Assembly: GCA_003167155.1 (NCBI GenBank)
Contig: PMTY01000166.1
Span: 1 to 34,118, forward strand
DNA from: Candidatus Cybelea tumulisoli
GTDB lineage: Bacteria > Vulcanimicrobiota > Vulcanimicrobiia > Vulcanimicrobiales > Vulcanimicrobiaceae
Direction: 5' to 3'
Length of the DNA: 34,118 nucleotides
A program made the translations under genes and the position numbers. Below are positions 13,274-21,735 of this stretch, in pieces; position 1 is the stretch's first letter; the number at the start of each line of letters is the position of its first letter. The notes under the pieces were generated by a model. That model was not told the origin of the DNA, ran no database searches, and was given only the letters and a program-made list of their open reading frames with translations.

Positions 13274-13558
13274 CTACTCGCCGATATCCCAGAGCAGGCC
13301 CAGGTCCTTTTTTGAAAAGGATCGGAAGGCAATGAGCGTCTCGGTGCTCAGGATGCCGTCGAGCGCGGCGACTTGTTCGGTAACGAGATCGTTCAGCTGC
13401 TCGTGCTGTTTCACGCGCACGATCGCGATCAAGTCGTAAGGCCCCGCGACCGAATAGACTTCGGCGATACCATCGATCGCCAGCAGGTCGTCGGCGATCG
13501 ACCTCAGCCGCGGCCGCTCGACGTTCATCAGAATGAGTGCTGCTACCACTTCAGGCAA
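13274..13558 (-). CDS. stand-alone Lrp/AsnC ligand-binding (RAM) domain protein
   Basis: A 94-residue protein consisting only of the RAM domain, the effector-binding and oligomerising half of Lrp/AsnC regulators, without the helix-turn-helix. The sequence has the alternating beta-alpha-beta pattern with the diagnostic middle VYSVAGPYDLIAIVRVK and the end ILSTETLIAFRSFSK. The start is TTG 13558, because an ATG ten codons later would remove the first strand; this TTG lies eight bases inside the end of the zinc-ribbon gene. Solo RAM proteins bind amino acids and form rings, and may modulate partner Lrp proteins. Being the last gene of the BoxB-like operon suggests it senses or fine-tunes that pathway, though it could simply be a passenger. 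Confidence 0.85.
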   Translation of the reverse strand: MPEVVAALILMNVERPRLRSIADDLLAIDGIAEVYSVAGPYDLIAIVRVKQHEQLNDLVTEQVAALDGILSTETLIAFRSFSKKDLGLLWDIGE

Positions 13559-13712
13559 CCTCGCTTACGATCTCGAGCGCGCCCCCGCAGTTCGGACAGC
13601 GGCCGTTCATTGCGGCTGCGCAGGCCGCACAAAACGTGCAGCCATACGAACACGCCCGCGCCTCGGCACGATTTTGAAAGTTCCGGCCACACCCCTGACA
13701 CGAGCTTTTCAT
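13551..13712 (-). CDS. 53-residue double zinc-ribbon protein (DUF1272-like)
   Basis: A very short gene from ATG 13712 to TGA 13551-13553. The product has eight cysteines in four pairs, C5/C8, C21/C25, C28/C31 and C39/C42, ending CTFCAACAAAMNGRCPNCGG. The core CSYGCTFCAACA...CPNCGGAL is what I know from DUF1272 proteins, small bacterial treble-clef or ribbon proteins of unknown role. Two zinc sites are predicted. It lies 15 bases after the crotonase stop and its own end overlaps the RAM-domain start, so it is locked in the BoxB-like operon. I see no clear ribosome-binding site, which suggests coupling to the crotonase gene. A role in metal supply or protein interaction is speculation. Confidence 0.8.
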   Translation of the reverse strand: MKSSCQGCGRNFQNRAEARACSYGCTFCAACAAAMNGRCPNCGGALEIVSEVA

Positions 13713-13727
13713 ACGTGACACGGGGTT

Positions 13728-14585
13728 TTATTTGTTCTTGAAGCGGGCGACGCGCTTTTCGTTATAGGCTGCGAGCCCTTCTTTGGCATCCTCGCTCTTG
13801 AAGAGCAGCGACTGCAGTTCGCGTTCCAGCGCAAGCGCGTCTTGGAGCGGAAGCTCGGCGCCGGTCTGAACGCTGCGTTTGATGTGCCCGACGGCCATCG
13901 GCGCCTTGTTCGGCGAGCAGAACTGCTTGGCGTAGTCCGTTATTTGCTGGCGGAACTCCGCCGCGGTGCCTTCGAAGAGATCGGTGAGCATTCCCCATTC
14001 TAGCGCTTGCTCGAAGCTGACGGTCTTTCCGGTCACCATCATCTCGATCGCGCGCGATTTGCCGACCAGACGCGCCAGGCGCTGAGTTCCGCCGGTTCCC
14101 GGAAGAACTCCGAGCGCAACTTCGGGAAGGCCGATTTTGCCGGCGTCCTTCCGACCGATGCGCATATCCGCCGCCATCGCGATCTCAAGTCCGCCGCCGA
14201 CGCAATGCCCGTTGAGCGCGGCGATCACCAGCTTCGGCGTTTGCTCGAGCCGGGACAGCGTCTCGTTTGCGTGCAGGCAGAACATGTACTTGAACTCGGG
14301 TGTAACTTGGTTGAGCATCCCGATGTTGGCGCCGGCCGAAAAGAACTTTTCGCCTTTGCCGGTAAGCACGATGACCTCGACGTCGTAGTCAAACCGCGCA
14401 TCGAGAATCGCTTCGTCGAGTTGCCGCATCATCTCGTGCGTATACGTGTTGGCCGGCGGATCGTCCATCTCGACGAACGCGACGTGGCCGTCTTTCCAGT
14501 AGTTGACGACGCGCTTGCCGTCTAACGCGCGTTGCTCGCGTCCGAACGGGGTCGGTTTTACTGCGCCGTCGAGTGTAGTCGTCAT
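13728..14585 (-). CDS. enoyl-CoA hydratase/isomerase (crotonase superfamily)
   Basis: A 285-residue crotonase. ATG 14585 overlaps the stop of the oxygenase gene by ATGA and has AAAGGAAACC upstream, so translation is coupled. The oxyanion-hole and catalytic segments are classical: GEKFFSAGANIGML, then ALNGHCVGGGLEIAMAADM and KIGLPEVALGVLPGTGGTQR; both glutamates that activate water in rat crotonase (GGGLE and GLPE) are present, so hydratase chemistry is feasible. It is a single 285-residue module, half the size of BoxC, the dedicated benzoyl-CoA dihydrodiol lyase that normally accompanies BoxB. In this operon it could isomerise or open the epoxide product, as PaaG and PaaZ do in the phenylacetate pathway, or act in later beta-oxidation. 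Cytoplasmic. Confidence 0.88.
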   Translation of the reverse strand: MTTTLDGAVKPTPFGREQRALDGKRVVNYWKDGHVAFVEMDDPPANTYTHEMMRQLDEAILDARFDYDVEVIVLTGKGEKFFSAGANIGMLNQVTPEFKYMFCLHANETLSRLEQTPKLVIAALNGHCVGGGLEIAMAADMRIGRKDAGKIGLPEVALGVLPGTGGTQRLARLVGKSRAIEMMVTGKTVSFEQALEWGMLTDLFEGTAAEFRQQITDYAKQFCSPNKAPMAVGHIKRSVQTGAELPLQDALALERELQSLLFKSEDAKEGLAAYNEKRVARFKNK

Positions 14586-15703
14586 GAAAGGTTTCCTTTG
14601 GGTGCGATCCAGTTTGGTTCTTTGAAGTATTCGTTGAGTATCGTTTCGTCGGCCGCGGTCGGAAGCACCGTCGGAGCGTAGGCTGCCCACTCTTCTTCGG
14701 TAAGTTTGCGGCCGTCCACGGCGTAACGTTCTCCGCCGTAATCGCCGATCTTGCGGTTGAAGCGCATGTCGGGAACGTAGAACTTCGTCTCGCTCGAGTT
14801 GACCTCGTTTACGCGAACGACCGTGGCCGAGATTTCGTCGTAGAACTGTTGGCGAGCGCGCTCGTTGAGATGCTCCTTGTCGGCGCCGTCCCCGGCCTTA
14901 TCCTCGTCGACGCGCCCCTTGATTCCCCAGGTGTAAGCCCATTGCGCCGAGCCCGAGTGATCGGTTCCAAAGAGATCGAGCGAGCCCGAAATCCATTTGT
15001 TGTAGTATTTCTGCTGAATCTCGACGGGGATGACGCCCGCCTTCGCGATGCGCCGCAGCCCCGTGATCCCGGTCCCCATGTGAAAGGCCTCCTCGCGAAG
15101 CATCGGGCCCATGGAGGCCGCGAGCGGAGCGAAACCCGAGTGAGACAGCATCGACAACTGAAACTTGCCGTCGCGGTCCATAAAGTTCGTGTAGGCGAAG
15201 AAGTCGAGCCAGTGCGTCACGTCATCGTTAAACGCGTTGAGCAAGCGATTCTTTTTGCCAAAAGCGCGGCGCTCGAGCATCTTCTGCGCTTCGATCTTTC
15301 CTTCGCTGCCGAAGTGTTCGACCATCAGATGGCACATCTGATAGCCGTGCCGCGTCTCTTCGACCATGATCCGAACGAGCGACGCCAGATCGTATTCGCT
15401 GGGCGCGTTGTTGACCAAGAATCGCTGCTGCTCGTTTGAGGCAAACTCCGTGTCGCCTTGATACACGACCATATTGAGGACCGCGTCTTTCATGCGTTGA
15501 TCGGGAATCTCCCGAACCCGCTCCCAGCGACGATCGCCTTTGAAGTCTCCGAAGTAGATTTCGGGCGTCGGCAGCTCAGCGTACTTCGCTTCAAAGGTAT
15601 ACCCCGGCATGAAGCGGTCGACCAACTCGCGATCGAGCCCGATGTCGCGCCTCCACTCGTCCAGCATGCCGATCCAGTCGTCAAAGGTCGCGATTCGGTT
15701 CAA
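14582..15703 (-). CDS. BoxB-like di-iron aryl-CoA oxygenase/epoxidase
   Basis: A ferritin-like di-iron protein of 373 residues from TTG 15703 (385 if TTG 15739 is used). The iron ligands of BoxB (benzoyl-CoA 2,3-epoxidase) can be matched in order, numbering from 15739: E98 in QGDTEFAS, E128 and H131 in VEETRH, D188 in FMDRDGKFQ, E217 and H220 in REEAFH. The 30-residue step between the first two glutamates equals the E120/E150 spacing of BoxB, and surrounding blocks (DRDGKFQL, KGRVDEDKAGD, RKIG) are also BoxB-like. It is about 100 residues shorter than BoxB and is also related to PaaA. I prefer TTG 15703: GAGGGG lies four bases upstream and the dyad site would otherwise fall inside the gene. 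Expected reaction: O2- and reductase-dependent epoxidation of an aryl-CoA; no reductase gene is nearby. Confidence 0.82.
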   Translation of the reverse strand: MNRIATFDDWIGMLDEWRRDIGLDRELVDRFMPGYTFEAKYAELPTPEIYFGDFKGDRRWERVREIPDQRMKDAVLNMVVYQGDTEFASNEQQRFLVNNAPSEYDLASLVRIMVEETRHGYQMCHLMVEHFGSEGKIEAQKMLERRAFGKKNRLLNAFNDDVTHWLDFFAYTNFMDRDGKFQLSMLSHSGFAPLAASMGPMLREEAFHMGTGITGLRRIAKAGVIPVEIQQKYYNKWISGSLDLFGTDHSGSAQWAYTWGIKGRVDEDKAGDGADKEHLNERARQQFYDEISATVVRVNEVNSSETKFYVPDMRFNRKIGDYGGERYAVDGRKLTEEEWAAYAPTVLPTAADETILNEYFKEPNWIAPKGNLS

Positions 15704-15719
15704 TTTGCCCCTCAAAATC

Positions 15720-15760
15720 GTATAACGGAAATTTCTCAAACGGCGAGAACACCGTTATAC
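15720..15760. promoter_or_regulatory. nested dyad operator, putative PaaX-binding site over divergent promoters
   Basis: GTATAACGG (15720-15728) is the exact inverted repeat of CCGTTATAC (15752-15760), separated by 23 bases. Inside it lies a second inverted pair, TTCTC (15733-15737) and GAGAA (15745-15749). Each outer arm contains a TATAC/TATAA promoter-10-like hexamer and each inner arm a TTCTC resembling a -35: on the plus strand TTCTCA, 17 bases, TATACT (15733-15761) points at paaX. The mirror image points at the oxygenase operon. A repressor bound here would shut both directions, as known for PaaX autoregulation. The symmetry is seen; the binding is inference. Confidence 0.6.
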
Positions 15761-15822
15761 TAAGGTGCTGCGGCAGAAGGTGTCAATCCTTCTCTTAGCG
15801 TCTCATCCGGGCAAAGGAGGAA

Positions 15823-16719
15823 ATGACGAGCGAAGAAGCCGGCCAGCGCCCGGTTACTCGGCCAAACTCGTTCATTTTCACGCTGTACGGCGATATGGTG
15901 CACCGCCTCGCCGGCGACGGAGCGCTTTGGATCGGCGGTTTGATCCGCTTGATGGCCTCGTTCGGGGTCTCGCCCCAGGCCGTTCGCCAAGCCGTCTCGC
16001 GGATGACCCGTCAAGGTTGGCTCGTCGCTCGGCGCGAGGGTAATCTCGCCTTCTATATGGTAACCGCCCGCGGGCGCCGCCGGATCGAGGAGCTCAGCCC
16101 CCGCATCTACGGACCGGTCATCGAGTGGGACGGTCGCTGGCGATTGCTCAGCTATGCTCTCGGGGAGACGGCGCAACGCCAAGTGCGCGACCGCCTCCGA
16201 AAGGAGCTGGCCGCGCTCGGCTGGGCGCAACTCTCCTCCTCGACCTGGATCTCGCCCTCGGATGCGCTCCAAGCCGCTCGCGAAGCGGCCGACGCGACGG
16301 CGGCGTTGGAGGCAATCCATCTGTTCGAGTCCGAATACCGCGGGCCGCTGACCGACCGCGCGCTGCTCGAACGTTGCTGGAACGTGGACTCGATCGCGTC
16401 GGCGTATCGCGAGTTCATCTCCCGCTATCGGCCGCGCTTCGACCTCGAACTCGCCGGCGGCGAGCTGAGCGACGAAGGAGCGTTCGTCGAGCGCCTCTGG
16501 CTCGTCCACGATTACCGAAAGTTTGCCTATCTCGACCCGGGTCTGCCAAGCGAGCTGCTGCCGGCTCATTGGCCCGGTACCGCGGCCGCCGCGCTCTTTC
16601 GCGAATACTACGCCGCGCTCGAAAAAAAATCACAACGTTACTTTCATCTTTGCACGCGCCTCACGAACGGGGGCGAGCGAAAGAGCGTCGAAGCGAGCCG
16701 CCCATGCCCAAACGCCTGA
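15823..16719 (+). CDS. paaX: PaaX-family transcriptional repressor
   Basis: A 298-residue regulator of the PaaX family, which represses aryl-CoA catabolic operons and is released by the CoA thioester (phenylacetyl-CoA in E. coli). The N-terminal winged helix (about 16-85) reads SFIFTLYGDMVHR, then LIRLMASFGVSPQAVRQAVSR as helix-turn-helix core, then GWLVARREGNLAFYMVT. The C-terminal PaaX domain (about 95-285) includes WDGRWRLLSYAL, LGWAQLSSSTWISP and LVHDYRKFAYLDPGLPSELLP, all family hallmarks. An excellent AGGAGG lies at 15815-15820 before ATG 15823. It is divergent from the BoxB-like operon, with the nested dyad in between, so it very likely controls it and itself. The 3' end overlaps the lipoprotein start by 16 bases. 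Confidence 0.93.
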   Translation: MTSEEAGQRPVTRPNSFIFTLYGDMVHRLAGDGALWIGGLIRLMASFGVSPQAVRQAVSRMTRQGWLVARREGNLAFYMVTARGRRRIEELSPRIYGPVIEWDGRWRLLSYALGETAQRQVRDRLRKELAALGWAQLSSSTWISPSDALQAAREAADATAALEAIHLFESEYRGPLTDRALLERCWNVDSIASAYREFISRYRPRFDLELAGGELSDEGAFVERLWLVHDYRKFAYLDPGLPSELLPAHWPGTAAAALFREYYAALEKKSQRYFHLCTRLTNGGERKSVEASRPCPNA

Positions 16720-17112: not shown

Positions 17113-17439
17113 CTAGGCCTCATCTTCATCTAAATGGAGATGACAGCCGTCTTCGGCTTCGGAGAGCACATCGCGCGCTTCGGCAAGTACCGCTCTTGAA
17201 AGGGGCCGCGGCGGCGGCTCGACGGAGCCCGGCTCGGCCAGAAAGTCTACTTCGCTCCAGTCTTCCCAGGTTTCGAGCGGCTCGCCGTCCTGCAGCGCCG
17301 GAAAGCGCACGCAGAATCCTTGGTCGAGGTGCAGGCCGACGACGGTTACCTCGGTCCCGCGTGGAAAATAGGTCCCATCCTTCCAGAGCGTGCCGTAGCT
17401 CGTGCTATAGTGCTGGCCGATCTTGAGCGCTTCCACCAT
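17113..17439 (-). CDS. acidic 108-residue protein of unknown function
   Basis: An open frame starting at ATG 17439, seven bases after the aldehyde dehydrogenase stop, so the last gene of the paaH-thiolase-aldehyde dehydrogenase operon. The first 70 residues have short alternating strands with SH3- or KOW-like character (LKIGQHYSTSYGTLWKDG, FPRGTEVTVVGLHLDQGFCV), and the tail is strongly acidic with a His-rich bit (GCHLHLDEDEA). I do not recognise a family. Coding is supported by codon usage and tight operon spacing. A regulatory or metal-binding role for the tail would be a guess. Confidence 0.65.
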   Translation of the reverse strand: MVEALKIGQHYSTSYGTLWKDGTYFPRGTEVTVVGLHLDQGFCVRFPALQDGEPLETWEDWSEVDFLAEPGSVEPPPRPLSRAVLAEARDVLSEAEDGCHLHLDEDEA

Positions 17440-17446
17440 ACGCTAG

Positions 17447-18940
17447 CTATACCCGAAACGGGTCCATCGGTTTCTCACCAATGTAGGTGAGCACGCTCTT
17501 GGTCTCGCTGTACAGCCGCATCGTCTCCATCCCCAACTCGCGCCCGTAACCGGACGCCTTATAACCGCCAAACGGAACGCCCGGGAAGACTGCGTACGGG
17601 GTGTTAATCGCAACGGATCCGGCGCGGATCGCACGCGCGACGCGATTCGCGCGCCCGACGTTCGAACTCCAGACGCTGGCGGCCAGCCCATACTCGCTGT
17701 CGTTTGCCAGCGCGATTGCCTCGGCTTCGTCCTCGAACCGTACCAACACGGCGACCGGACCGAAGATCTCCTCGCGAACGATCCGGTGATCGCTTTTGGC
17801 TTCGTAGGCCGTCGGATTCCAGAACATTCCCGCTGCGAAACTTTGGCCGAGGTCGGGCGGAGCGCCGCCGAAAAGCGTCTGAGCGCCTTCGGCCGCGCCG
17901 ATCTCGCAATACGAACGAATCTTTTCGAACTGCTCGGACGTCGTGATTGCGCCGATCTGCGTCTGCGGATCTTCCGGGTCGCCGACGCGCAGCAGTTTCG
18001 CCTTCTGCGCAAACCGTTCGACGAAACGGTCGTAGACGCCGGATTGCAGCAGAATGCGCGAGCGCGCCTCACAGCATTGGCCGGCATTGTAGTAGACTCC
18101 GTACAGCGCACCGGCGACGGCCGCGTCGACATCGGCGTCGTCAAAAACGACCGACGGCGATTTCCCCCCGAGTTCCAGCGTTACGCGCTTGAGCGTACGC
18201 GCTGCCGACGCAGCGACCATACGTCCCGTCTCCGTCGAGCCGGTAAATGCGATCTTGTCGACGGCTGGATGATCGACGAGCCAGCCTCCGAGCCCGCCTT
18301 TCGAACCGGTGACCACGTTGAGAACGCCTTCGGGTACGCCCGCTTCGAGCGCGATCTTGCCCAACTCGATCGCCGTGAGCGGCGTCGCATGCGCCGGCTT
18401 GAGCACGATCGTGCAGCCTGCCGCGAGCGCCGGTGCGACTTTCCACGAAGCCAACAGCAACGGAAAGTTCCACGGAACGATTGCACCAACAACGCCGACC
18501 GGCTCGCGCACGGTGTTGGCGAGATAAGTCGGCAGCGGAGGCGGCAACGTGTCGCCATAGTTTTTCGTTGCCGCGCCGGCATAAAACTCAAAGGTATCCA
18601 CGATTGCGCTCAGCTCGCCTTTAGCGGTCCCGACGGTCTTGCCGTTGTTGCGAACCTCGCACAAGGCCAAATCGGCTGCGCGCTCGCCGATGAGCTGCGC
18701 AACCTTGTAAATGATCTTTGCGCGTCGCGAGGCCGCCATCGACGCCCACTTGCCGGCATCGAACGCCCGGCGCGCCGCGTTTACGGCATCGTTGAGATCC
18801 TCGCGCGTCGCTTCGGCGACGTCGGCGAGCTTCGCCCCCGTGGCGGGATTGCGAACTTCGTACGTGCCGCCATCGGAGGCATCTCGCCAGGCTCCGCCGA
18901 TCAGCAGTTGCGTTTTGGTCATGGTGGGCGCAGTCGTCAT
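17447..18940 (-). CDS. NAD(P)-dependent aldehyde dehydrogenase
   Basis: A 497-residue member of the ALDH superfamily that oxidises an aldehyde to the acid. The start at ATG 18940 has AGAAGGCG about nine bases upstream; a second ATG lies six codons in. Landmarks: PWNFPLLLASWKVAPALAAG in the coenzyme domain, FTGSTETGR, the general base E256 in LELGGKSP, the nucleophile C290 in NAGQCCEARSRI, and EEIFGPVAVLVRF near the end. It is most like the family of betaine, phenylacetaldehyde and hydroxymuconic semialdehyde dehydrogenases, not the fused PaaZ type. In this operon it may oxidise the ring-cleavage semialdehyde, the job of BoxD or the PaaZ N-domain. It starts 12 bases after the thiolase stop. 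Confidence 0.92.
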   Translation of the reverse strand: MTTAPTMTKTQLLIGGAWRDASDGGTYEVRNPATGAKLADVAEATREDLNDAVNAARRAFDAGKWASMAASRRAKIIYKVAQLIGERAADLALCEVRNNGKTVGTAKGELSAIVDTFEFYAGAATKNYGDTLPPPLPTYLANTVREPVGVVGAIVPWNFPLLLASWKVAPALAAGCTIVLKPAHATPLTAIELGKIALEAGVPEGVLNVVTGSKGGLGGWLVDHPAVDKIAFTGSTETGRMVAASAARTLKRVTLELGGKSPSVVFDDADVDAAVAGALYGVYYNAGQCCEARSRILLQSGVYDRFVERFAQKAKLLRVGDPEDPQTQIGAITTSEQFEKIRSYCEIGAAEGAQTLFGGAPPDLGQSFAAGMFWNPTAYEAKSDHRIVREEIFGPVAVLVRFEDEAEAIALANDSEYGLAASVWSSNVGRANRVARAIRAGSVAINTPYAVFPGVPFGGYKASGYGRELGMETMRLYSETKSVLTYIGEKPMDPFRV

Positions 18941-18952
18941 GGCAAACGCCTT

Positions 18953-20146
18953 CTACTCGACCCGCTCGAATACCGTTGCGATACCCTGACCGACGCCGAT
19001 GCACATCGTCGCCAGGCCGAAGCGCGCCTTTCGCCGAGCCATCTCGTGCAGCAGCGTGGTCGCGATGCGCGCGCCGCTTGCTCCGAGCGGGTGTCCCAGC
19101 GCGATCGCGCCGCCGTTGACGTTCGTCTTCGCGGGGTCGAGCCCCAGCTCGCGCGTGCATGCGACGGCTTGCGATGCGAAGGCTTCATTAATTTCGATCA
19201 GATCGAGCTGTTCGACGGTCAGTTGAGCGCGCGCGAGCGCCTTGCGCGTTGCGGGTATCGGCCCCAGGCCCATCACGTCGGGCGCAACGCCCACGCTGGC
19301 GCAGGCGACGATCCGAGCCATCGGCCGCAGACCCCAGCGGCGCGCCGTCTGCGCCTCGCACAGCAGAAGCGCCGCTGCGCCGTCGTTGATGCCCGACGAG
19401 TTGCCGGCCGTCACCGTGCCGTCGCTCTTGAAAGCGGGCTTCAATTTCGCCAAACGCTCCAGCGTCGTCTCCGGCCGCGGATGTTCGTCGCTCGTCACGG
19501 AGGCTGCGGGTGAGCCGTCGATCGGCACGGCAACCAGCTCGCCTGCAAATGCGCTGCGTTGCGTTGCCGCCTTGCACTTCATCTGAGATTCGAACGCGAA
19601 CCGGTCTTGCTCTTCGCGCGTGATGCCATAATCTCGCGCGACGTTCTCGGCTGTCTCGCCGAGGGAGACGGTATGTTGGGGCGGCATCTTCGGATTGATC
19701 ATGCGCCAGCCGAGAACCGTATCGAAGAGCCGTTGGCCTCGACCAAACGGCGCGTCGCTCTTGGGCAAAACATATGGCGCGCGCGTCATCGATTCGACGC
19801 CTCCGGCGATCATCACGTCGCCTTCTCCAAAGGCAATCGCTTGCGCGGCCGAGTTAATCGCCTGCAGGCTCGAACCGCACAGGCGGTTGACTGTAACGCC
19901 CGGCACGCCAAGCGGCAGATTCGCCAAGAGCACGGCCATGCGCGCGACGTTTCGGTTATCTTCGCCGCTCTGATTGGCGGCGCCGAAGTACACGTCCTCA
20001 ACGATCGAGGGACTGATGCCGGTGCGCTCTACGATGGCGCGCAGCGCGATCGCGGCAAGATCGTCGGGCCGAACGGTCGCCAGCGCGCCGCCATGGCGGC
20101 CGATCGGCGTGCGCACGGCATCAACAACCCAAACTTCGCGGCTCAT
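18953..20146 (-). CDS. acetyl-CoA acyltransferase (thiolase; PaaJ/PcaF-like)
   Basis: A 397-residue type II thiolase that cleaves a 3-oxoacyl-CoA with CoA to release acetyl-CoA. The acyl-accepting cysteine is C90 in [13 protein letters not shown]; the catalytic histidine H352 is in [16 protein letters not shown]; the second cysteine C382 is in MCIGVGQG. Other family blocks are [10 protein letters not shown] (here [11 protein letters not shown]) and [17 protein letters not shown] 20146 overlaps the stop of the dehydrogenase gene by ATGA, so both are translated together. Given its partners it most likely performs the last step of aryl-CoA breakdown, 3-oxoadipyl-CoA to succinyl-CoA plus acetyl-CoA, but generic beta-oxidation cannot be excluded by sequence alone. 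Confidence 0.92.
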
Positions 20147-21735
20147 TGCGGCAGGCTCTCCTCCTCGGGCGCGGGCGACTCTTCCATGTCGAGAAGCCAG
20201 ATTGAACGATGCGCCGCGAAGTCATCGCCTTCGGCGTCGGCCAGCCGTTTCAAGATGGCGCGCAGGCGCGCACCGCCGATTTCACGCCCCCACGCGATCG
20301 GACCCACAGGATAGTTGGCTCCCAGCTGCATTGCTTCGTCAATATCTTCGGGCGTGGCGACCTCCAGCGCAACGGCAATCATCGCCTCGTTGACGATCGA
20401 GCCGATGGTCCGTCCAAGAAAGAGTCCCGGCACGTCTTCAACGAGCACGGAAGCTCTGCCGATGGTTGCGAAGAGTTCCTGCGCCAGCTCGAGCGCATCG
20501 TCCGAGGCATTCTCCGAGTTTACGATCTCTACGGCATCCACGGCCGACAAAGACCCGAGGACCCCGAAGCCGACGAGCCGCTCGGGATGACGTAATCGCG
20601 CCGCACACGCCGCAACGTTGGTCGCGTACGCATCGGTAAAGATGACGCATTCCGGCTCGAGCGACGCTTCGAACCGGGCGATGGCATCGCCGCGATCGGA
20701 CGTTCCGTCGCCGGCGTCGATCAGCATCGTCGGATGAGCCGTAAGGTCGTCGAAGAACTCATCGTTGTCGATGCGTTGCACGTTCCGGTAACCTTGCTCG
20801 AGCATCTCCGCCAATTCGTCTGCGCGGTAACCAAAGCCGACGACGACAACGATCTCTTCATCGTTTGGCTCCTCCGCCGGCGCGGGCACGTCGAGCTCGA
20901 ACCGCTCGGTCTTGCCATCGCGATACGAATAGAATCCGGCGCCGGTCTTTCGGCCCAGCAAACCTTCGGCGACCATGCGCCGCTGAAGCTCCAGCGGTTC
21001 GAAACGCTTAGCCTCCGTGCGCGCATAGATCGACTCGCTCGTCGCAAGATTCACGTCGAGTCCGATGAGATCGATGAGCTCGAAAGGCCCCATGCGGAAA
21101 CCGGCTCCGCGCGCGAGCGCATCGAGCTCTTCGGCGGAGGCCACGCCGCGCTCGAGCGCACGCAACGCCTGCAGATAGTACGGCCGAGCCACACGATTGA
21201 CGATGAATCCGGGCGTGTCGGCCGTAAGAACAGGCGTCTTTCCCAGACGCTCGACGATCGCGAACGCGCGGTCGAGCGCATCGTCGCTGGTCTGCGGCGC
21301 GCGAACGATTTCGACGAGCTGCATTCGAATCGGGGGATTGAAGAAGTGCAGCCCGAGCACACGCTGCGGATGGGAGACGGCATCGGCAAGCTCGGCGACC
21401 GAGAGCGACGACGTGTTGGTCGCGAGCAGCGCCTCCGGCGGGAGCGCCTCGGCCAGAGCCGCAAAGACGTCGCGCTTGATTTCGAATCGCTCGGAGACGG
21501 CTTCGATGGCAAGCATCGCGTCGCTGCGGGCAGGGATGGCGCTCGTGCAAGCAACGCGTCGTCCAATCGAAGGATCGCCCGATCGCTCCGCCTGCCGCGC
21601 AATCTCGAGCAACGCCCGCTCGCGCGCCGCCTGCTGCGGCTCGACGATCTCCACGTCGTAGCCCGCTTTGGCGGCGACGAACGCGATGCCGGCGCCCATC
21701 GTCCCGCCGCCGGCAATCAAAATTCGTTCCGTCAT
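20143..21735 (-). CDS. paaH: 3-hydroxyacyl-CoA dehydrogenase, PaaH/PaaC type with duplicated module
   Basis: A 530-residue NAD-dependent dehydrogenase built from two copies of the 3HCDH module. The first copy is intact: nucleotide-binding GGGTMGAGIA (9-18), NTSSLSV (107-113), the catalytic histidine H130 in GLHFFNPP and the C-domain PGFIVNRVARPYYLQA onward (175-270). The second copy (about 293-520) keeps the outline but has lost the activities: the Rossmann start is VVVGFGYRADE, the histidine motif is replaced by VGFGVLGSLSAVD, while the C-domain PGLFLGRTIGSIVNEAM is preserved. This long architecture is typical of PaaH/PaaC, the 3-hydroxyadipyl-CoA dehydrogenase of phenylacetate degradation. 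It begins the operon continuing into thiolase and aldehyde dehydrogenase. An alternative call is FadB-like hydroxybutyryl-CoA dehydrogenase. Confidence 0.88.
   Translation of the reverse strand: MTERILIAGGGTMGAGIAFVAAKAGYDVEIVEPQQAARERALLEIARQAERSGDPSIGRRVACTSAIPARSDAMLAIEAVSERFEIKRDVFAALAEALPPEALLATNTSSLSVAELADAVSHPQRVLGLHFFNPPIRMQLVEIVRAPQTSDDALDRAFAIVERLGKTPVLTADTPGFIVNRVARPYYLQALRALERGVASAEELDALARGAGFRMGPFELIDLIGLDVNLATSESIYARTEAKRFEPLELQRRMVAEGLLGRKTGAGFYSYRDGKTERFELDVPAPAEEPNDEEIVVVVGFGYRADELAEMLEQGYRNVQRIDNDEFFDDLTAHPTMLIDAGDGTSDRGDAIARFEASLEPECVIFTDAYATNVAACAARLRHPERLVGFGVLGSLSAVDAVEIVNSENASDDALELAQELFATIGRASVLVEDVPGLFLGRTIGSIVNEAMIAVALEVATPEDIDEAMQLGANYPVGPIAWGREIGGARLRAILKRLADAEGDDFAAHRSIWLLDMEESPAPEEESLPQ

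Follow-up and report, generated by a model that had tools for sequence, protein, structure and literature searches.

The contig PMTY01000166.1 of Candidatus Cybelea tumulisoli (assembly GCA_003167155.1), whose 34,118 nucleotides are referred to here as the window, contains a gene for a BoxB-like di-iron oxygenase coupled to a crotonase gene, with a second operon at 17113–21735. We read this system as a compact variant of the box pathway, one that is widespread. We consider it probable that the locus encodes a compact box pathway for the aerobic ring cleavage of an aryl-coenzyme A (aryl-CoA), most likely benzoyl-CoA. From the computed ligands, catalytic residues, clades, gene neighbourhoods and palindrome described below we infer the activity, the substrate, the reaction order, the repressor binding and the reductase of the following scheme. 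The compact BoxB (373 amino acids, aa) would insert one oxygen atom at its di-iron site and produce a ring epoxide, and the crotonase (285 aa, hereafter mini-BoxC) would open the ring hydrolytically. An aldehyde dehydrogenase (ALDH) would then take the BoxD step, oxidising the ring-opened semialdehyde, and a PaaH-type 3-hydroxyacyl-CoA dehydrogenase (HAD) with a PaaJ-type thiolase would carry the product through beta-oxidation to acetyl-CoA and succinyl-CoA. A divergently encoded PaaX-family repressor would act at the shared promoter, through a conserved palindrome, and a carrier distinct from BoxA, with its gene elsewhere, would supply the electrons. The window genome measures 3.73 Mb and is 91.65% complete; the records most similar to it in sequence bear the title Candidatus Eremiobacterota (Vulcanimicrobiota in NCBI naming). 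Below, L, G and C numbers designate loci, genomes and contigs, and f1–f3 the families of compact BoxB within the phylum.

Two sets of relatives were used, the genomes of the phylum and a database scan outside it. The scan returned at least 584 oxygenase relatives, of which the best 80, ranked by likeness to the L047 protein, were analysed; these loci overlap in part with those of the phylum search, and residue counts are given for distinct sequences. The initial annotation had recognised in the oxygenase a BoxB-like protein that has the six di-iron ligands, spaced as in BoxB, on a chain about 100 residues shorter, and these statements hold. Its best NCBIfam model is TIGR03225 (boxB) with 224.3 bits, the PaaA model giving 30.9 bits, and neither score passes the respective cut-off (499.1 bits for the curated boxB equivalog, 280 bits for PaaA); the best match in the PDB is BoxB 3per (E 6.8e-55). 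In the alignment to 3per the residues E98, E128, H131, D188, E217 and H220 (counted from 15739) fall on Glu120, Glu150, His153, Asp211, Glu240 and His243, the BoxB ligands as listed in the accessible part of PMC5489048. All six are present at the BoxB spacing in 104 of 104 distinct compact sequences, and so are the substrate-orienting residues Gln116, Thr119, Ser123 and Phe193 of BoxB. In the 80 scan loci E98, D188, Gln116, Thr119 and Ser123 are partly forced, because the scan was made with two peptides that include these positions (QGDTEFAS and DRDGKFQL, which contain E98 and D188); 30 compact rows found by a genome search without any peptide pattern keep these ligand and substrate residues too. 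The compact proteins measure 368–392 aa (13 rows) against 474–476 aa in classic BoxB (4 rows), and the BoxB segments 1–14, 43–66, 259–277, 333–355, 449–452 and 469–475 (Mycetohabitans numbering) are missing in more than 70% of the 13 compact rows.

In a tree of 50 oxygenases classic BoxB forms one clade (100/100) on a branch of length 2.57, and the window protein stands outside it; the outcome that would have refuted the initial annotation, a place inside classic BoxB with boxA and boxC elsewhere in the genome, was not observed. A single compact clade is weakly rejected in this tree (approximately unbiased test, p 0.0245), which suggests that classic BoxB was derived from within the compact forms; this step is unsure because both oxygenase trees carried long-branch warnings. 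Two of the 121 rows of the oxygenase alignment (L058 and L070) were dropped as fragments. A third type of BoxB-like di-iron protein, of 413–441 aa and with the motif QASTEFGSIQQHR, was also seen (L051 9310–10620, L071 8677–10002 and L055 9006–10247) and branches outside both the compact and the classic BoxB.

The crotonase had been called ordinary in the initial annotation, a description that has to be abandoned. In the alignment its Cys103, Glu108, Glu134 and Glu155 correspond to Cys111, Glu116, Glu146 and Glu168 of BoxC, of which we take Cys111, Glu146 and Glu168 to be the catalytic residues (their numbers and the role of Cys111 being assumed), and an FC-x3-NET stretch is common to both proteins. 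When proteins at least 54% identical to the window crotonase are taken as its homologs, an identity line picked after the matches had been seen, 83 of 87 distinct ones have a signature of five residues (C103, N107, E108, E134 and E155). This signature is also complete in 6 of 6 BoxC proteins of the phylum, and of the other crotonases encoded in these loci 0 of 39 have it. In a tree that includes 14 other crotonases, PaaF and PaaG among them (own_C171 having been dropped), a single clade of 22 rows (100/97.7, the bootstrap being not fully settled) unites 14 proteins of the mini-BoxC type with the catalytic domains of 8 BoxC proteins. The best solved match of the crotonase is PDB 2ppy (243.9 bits, the next 176.7), presumably from Geobacillus kaustophilus, which has the same FC-x3-NET stretch and is described merely as 'enoyl-CoA hydratase'. 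Within its genome no protein scores higher than the crotonase with the BoxC model TIGR03222 (83.7 bits, the next 36.1); the score is below the cut-off of 712.3 and the match spans BoxC positions 44–235 of 548. According to the accessible part of a review (PMC4498308), BoxC consists of two crotonase domains, and the active centre, with two Glu residues, lies in the N-terminal one alone. On the strength of the signature, the common clade, the match to positions 44–235 and the domain organisation given in the review, the crotonase is read as a putative single-domain BoxC equivalent to the catalytic N-terminal half.

The association of the two proteins extends far beyond the window. A relative of the oxygenase was found in 104 of 149 genomes of the phylum; sorted by hand, with contig-end fragments included in the lists, 86 genomes have the compact form, 16 the classic one (4 of them, G029, G030, G031 and G125, having both) and 6 the third type. 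In G031 the compact and the classic sets lie on different contigs. Among the phylum loci fetched, classic BoxB adjoins BoxC (6 matches, 682–727 bits, none in compact loci) and compact BoxB of the families f1–f3 adjoins the single-domain crotonase; the more distant compact loci L047–L049 gave no crotonase match. Of the 80 scan loci, 65 have on the same contig a crotonase at least 54% identical to that of the window; the distance to the oxygenase is under 3 kb in 55 of them, and 62 have both genes on one strand. By NCBI names, the oxygenase loci that also hold the crotonase are 15/15 in Vulcanimicrobiota, 22/25 in Acidobacteriota, 7/9 in Gemmatimonadota, 2/2 in Rokuibacteriota, 1/1 in NC10/Methylomirabilota, 1/4 in Planctomycetota, 1/2 in Pseudomonadota and 1/1 in Armatimonadota, the last on the contig that also appears as L046 in the window's phylum. 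Archaeal records contain both genes in 9/9 cases, adjacent on one strand in 5, and two of these records are titled Poseidoniales or Marine Group II. The archaeal loci L144–L151 combine compact BoxB and mini-BoxC with a HAD gene; a conserved 187-residue protein is encoded in 5/8 of them and a conserved NAD/FAD-binding protein in 8/8.

That the operon at 17113–21735 belongs to one pathway with the pair had been proposed from gene order and family roles, and comparison of loci supports it. In f2 (L041 and L042, also L105) the order on one strand is HAD (two open reading frames, ORFs), thiolase, ALDH, oxygenase, crotonase. In Gemmatimonadota (L095, L097, L098, L103 and L119) it is crotonase, ALDH, thiolase, second crotonase, oxygenase, HAD. 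One predicted pathway is thus indicated both by a contiguous operon and by the same functions recurring in a different order. The ALDH is 27% identical to the ALDH part of PaaZ, and a homolog at least 33% identical lies on the contig in 40/80 loci. The thiolase scores 569 bits with PRK09050 (cut-off 605) and 562.5 with TIGR02430 (cut-off 597) and is 55% identical to E. coli PaaJ; the HAD protein gives 357.9 bits with TIGR02279 (cut-off 669.4) and is 36% identical to E. coli PaaH.

In classic systems electrons would be expected from BoxA. The initial annotation had suggested searching the rest of the genome for a BoxA/PaaE-like reductase and an aryl-CoA ligase, and neither BoxA (no match at E ≤ 1e-5) nor a classic BoxC was found in this approximately 92% complete genome. 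BoxA is equally missing at E ≤ 1e-40 from all 149 genomes of the phylum, those with classic BoxB included, and its absence was for this reason rejected as a mark of the compact form. The fetched loci have no ORF related to BoxA or PaaE at a threshold of E ≤ 1e-5, and the reductase search of the window genome yielded one FAD_binding_6 match, on contig C107 and with no clear link to the pathway. In a study of SAR324, BoxB and BoxC are listed together with a ligase, and BoxA is not named in the accessible part of the text (PMC4782131). Near compact BoxB, 6/80 loci (3 from Myxococcota, 2 from Acidobacteriota and 1 from Binatota) encode a 2Fe-2S thioredoxin-like protein, and 3 of those 6 encode a NuoF-like protein as well, one member of each family having been scanned; the two are possible candidates for a BoxA substitute. 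In L085 (11108–12732), L090 and L099, from Binatota and Myxococcota, both genes directly follow the compact epoxidase. In L057 (7465–8700) the gene immediately after classic BoxB, in the place expected for BoxA, encodes what by eye is similar to an NADPH:ferredoxin reductase of the FprA type.

The clues to the substrate come from neighbouring genes. L040 has, after the pair and within the operon, a gene of the benzoate-CoA-ligase family (569.3 bits, cut-off 375.25), and ligase homologs of 40–47% identity follow the pair in L101 and L113 (2/80 loci). Such a ligase is present in 56/86 genomes with the compact form against 18/51 without it, a comparison that leaves out classic-only genomes and is uncorrected for shared ancestry. 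At least one subunit of an enzyme similar to 4-hydroxybenzoyl-CoA reductase is encoded on the contig in 16/80 loci, 15 of them from Acidobacteriota; in L136, the sole set scored, the alpha subunit passes its cut-off (1038.6 bits against 994.55), beta (331.1) and gamma (181.7) being under theirs. 4-Hydroxybenzoyl-CoA reductase makes benzoyl-CoA, and an enzyme regarded as 'anaerobic' apparently feeds an aerobic pathway here, mostly in Acidobacteriota. The ligase-family and reductase-like neighbours therefore point to benzoyl-CoA as the likely substrate. The loci with such reductase-like molybdenum hydroxylases are L136 (14226–18295), L084, L086, L087, L113, L121, L126, L130, L134, L135 and L137–L142. 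Subunits similar to glutaconate CoA-transferase lie next to the epoxidase in L040 (5136–6673), L076, L082, L087, L121, L126, L133 (one subunit), L136, L137, L139 and L142, and possibly take the place of an ATP-dependent ligase, activating aromatic acids through CoA transfer. The L040 pair was also considered as a steroid-type ring hydrolase (IpdAB), an idea that was set aside since the pair is closest to glutaconate CoA-transferases.

The regulator encoded divergently from the oxygenase is a member of the PaaX family by its domains: the matches to PF07848, PF20803 and PF08223 are all over the cut-off, and the protein is 33.7% identical to E. coli PaaX, its score with the TIGR02277 equivalog (244.1 bits) being under the cut-off of 264.55, so that the assignment is at the level of the family. 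The inverted repeat between the two genes (Table 1) is perfect and is the sole such site in the window, with 0 in 100 shuffles for a pattern drawn from the site itself. Of 25 loci scanned, the window included, 10 have the consensus TATRACGGT-N21-ACCGTYATA, with up to 3 mismatches allowed, at the junction between PaaX and oxygenase, with one further match elsewhere and one match in one shuffle of 349 kb; the consensus was built from the sites themselves, and the background is a single-letter shuffle. We regard the palindrome as a probable operator of the PaaX type. A palindrome common to the window's own family was looked for before the lower operon and not found, and a site with 3 mismatches where the f2 operon begins (L041 14561–14600) was judged too weak to count. 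Among the 80 scan loci PaaX occurs in 17, namely 13 from Vulcanimicrobiota and 4 from unclassified bins, and a TetR-type gene lies near in 31 (mostly in Acidobacteriota, 21 of 25, and Gemmatimonadota, 6 of 9, one member scanned). Since most Acidobacteriota and Gemmatimonadota loci have a TetR-type gene instead, the regulator seems to have been chosen locally, and PaaX is no evidence for the paa route.

Several observations weigh against a plain equation of the locus with a benzoyl-CoA box pathway, and some of them fit other explanations. Three positions of the BoxB pocket are changed in the 104 compact sequences: Phe206 is replaced by Tyr in 93, Phe208 by Asn, Asp, Gln or Glu in 92, and Thr210 by Met, Val or Ile in all 104; the window protein has Tyr183, Asn185 and Met187 there (counted from 15739). 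Classic BoxB of the phylum has Phe206 and Thr210 in 6/6 sequences and Phe or Tyr at position 208. Because of these changes the substrate or regiochemistry could differ from that of BoxB, and the same enzymes and logic might serve another native aryl-CoA, for instance a hydroxy-, amino- or phenylpropanoid-derived one, in a reshaped pocket. The retention of both a classic and a compact oxygenase in four genomes suggests different jobs and would agree with this. So would the position of the ligase in the window genome: its best protein of the benzoate-CoA-ligase family, nearest to TIGR02262, is just below the cut-off (358.8 against 375.25 bits) and is encoded on another contig. There, in L157 (8884–12435, contig C104), it forms one gene run with genes that by eye are acyl-CoA dehydrogenase-like and crotonase-like; this run could supply aryl-CoA to the pathway. 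The same genome reaches 424 bits with the alpha model of 4-hydroxybenzoyl-CoA reductase, for which the cut-off is 994.55. We nevertheless consider a different native substrate unlikely, as the four benzoyl-orienting residues are unchanged and the ligase-family and reductase-like neighbours, where present, indicate benzoyl-CoA. Further points on the opposing side are the 15 of 80 scan loci without the crotonase, some of them with full flanks (those with room on both sides belong to Planctomycetota, Binatota, Myxococcota and one Pseudomonadota; other lacking loci are partly cut short), and the fact that no reductase gene is consistently linked to the compact loci.

The initial annotation had raised the possibility of a third variant, a hybrid of the box and paa routes. 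In such a scheme the BoxB-like enzyme would form the epoxide and the later chemistry would be of the Paa type (PaaF/PaaG), the crotonase being an ordinary one. The PaaX-family regulator and the PaaH- and PaaJ-type enzymes would be in line with this scheme, and so would a plain BLAST of the crotonase, which places PaaF (138 bits) before BoxC (97) and PaaG (89); the 25 best NCBIfam models for this protein, mostly enoyl-CoA hydratases, are all below their cut-offs. PaaH/PaaJ-type steps, however, belong to both the box and the paa routes, PaaX is seen in the minority of scan loci given above, the crotonase has the BoxC-specific signature and clade, and neither PaaA nor PaaC was found in the window genome, where the oxygenase is the sole PF05138 match. 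With both key enzymes on the Box side, a box/paa hybrid appears improbable. Still more improbable, in our opinion, is that the crotonase acts solely as the later 2,3-dehydroadipyl-CoA hydratase/isomerase and another enzyme opens the epoxide. Both hydratase glutamates (E134 and E155) are kept, as in PaaF, and the further crotonases of Gemmatimonadota and Acidobacteriota loci could divide the roles; on the other hand, the extra crotonase ECH3 of L098 and its kin in L083 group with PaaF (83/78), ECH2 of L098 lacks both glutamates, and Cys103 and the NET stretch are BoxC traits. Because ECH3 groups with PaaF and ECH2 is devoid of these glutamates, ring opening would fall to mini-BoxC, and the compact box pathway is the reading that we retain.

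The features of the locus are collected in Table 1; ORF positions and overlaps agree with those given initially. The sequence ATGA at 14582–14585 is shared by the oxygenase stop and the crotonase start. The true start of the oxygenase is probably TTG 15703, giving 373 aa, because the oxygenases of relatives start with Met at the matching position, GAGGGG precedes this TTG and the palindrome covers 15739. Of the four-gene neighbourhood claimed at the outset, the core of oxygenase, 285-residue crotonase and PaaX stood. The two small proteins did not: DUF1272 was detected in 3/26 and RAM in 12/26 of the relatives' loci, the latter at 0.16–6.5 kb from the crotonase. Being rare among the loci, and RAM lying at a variable distance, they were rejected as working parts, even if in the window their ORFs overlap by 8 nt and DUF1272 is separated from the crotonase by 6 nt. 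The 108-aa protein was recovered by tblastn in 16/19 f1 loci and 0/7 f2/f3 loci. In Gemmatimonadota and Acidobacteriota a gene family recurs downstream of the epoxidase at a distance of about 2.8 kb (17/80 loci, e.g. L097 11648–13522); the one member scanned encodes an amidohydrolase (PF04909).

Table 1. Annotated features of the compact box locus (window coordinates)
Feature	Position	Strand	Remarks
RAM/AsnC-ligand-domain protein	13274..13558	-	PF01037, 57.8 bits; judged outside the system
DUF1272 protein	13551..13721	-	PF06906, 57.4 bits; judged outside the system
Crotonase (mini-BoxC), putative single-domain BoxC-like, 285 aa	13728..14585	-	ATGA-coupled to the epoxidase
Compact BoxB-like di-iron aryl-CoA epoxidase (putative)	14582..15703	-	Probable start TTG 15703; longer ORF to 15739
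Inverted repeat GTATAACGG-N23-CCGTTATAC	15720..15760	.	Divergent promoter; probable PaaX-type operator
PaaX-family repressor	15823..16719	+	Divergent from the epoxidase gene; PF07848, PF20803, PF08223
108-aa protein	17113..17439	-	End of the lower operon; no match in Pfam and NCBIfam scans
Aldehyde dehydrogenase, proposed BoxD role	17447..18940	-	PF00171, 569.4 bits
Thiolase, 3-oxoadipyl-CoA type (PaaJ/PcaF)	18953..20146	-	PRK09050 and TIGR02430 matches below cut-off
3-Hydroxyacyl-CoA dehydrogenase, PaaH type (HAD)	20143..21735	-	TIGR02279, 357.9 bits

With a compact version of the pathway in marine archaea and in uncultured phyla of the soil, the aerobic cleavage of benzoyl-CoA would reach into major lineages of soil and ocean. 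Both window proteins are overlooked by the curated NCBIfam cut-offs (224 of 499 bits for the oxygenase, 84 of 712 for the crotonase). Small enzymes of this kind would be useful for work on both reactions, epoxidation as well as ring opening, and it would become testable whether BoxB and BoxC originated through elongation and the gain of a domain. We also put forward, tentatively, a broader possibility: the pair may be the widespread general form of aerobic benzoyl-CoA cleavage, working without BoxA in at least 7 bacterial phyla and in planktonic marine archaea. The BoxB and BoxC of textbooks might then be one late, long-branched offshoot, and in Acidobacteriota the pair might be fed by 4-hydroxybenzoyl-CoA reductase, normally tied to anaerobic degradation. 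An aerobic benzoyl-CoA pathway was reportedly described from Bacillus stearothermophilus, to judge by the title of a 2001 work of Zaar et al. The experimental study of benzoyl-CoA pathways has concerned Alpha- and Betaproteobacteria, according to the accessible part of PMC10803450. No compact or single-domain form is described among the literature matches listed, most of these listings being partial and subscription papers lying outside their coverage.

Compared with known systems, the locus shares with the PaaABCE/paa pathway a distantly related di-iron subunit and neighbours of the PaaX, PaaH and PaaJ types; it differs in that the oxygenase is 23% identical to PaaA and its genome yielded no PaaA or PaaC. 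To BoxB (3per/3pm5) the resemblance is much closer, comprising the six ligands, the four substrate-orienting residues and 38% identity over 379 aligned positions to the Mycetohabitans protein; the compact form differs from it by the loss of several segments, the altered pocket, the position outside the classic clade and the TIGR03225 score below cut-off. With BoxC (TIGR03222) the crotonase has in common the equivalents of Cys111, Glu116, Glu146 and Glu168, the FC-x3-NET stretch and the clade of the N-terminal domain, and the difference lies in the architecture, BoxC having two domains and 556 aa in Mycetohabitans and the mini-BoxC of the window a single domain of 285 aa.

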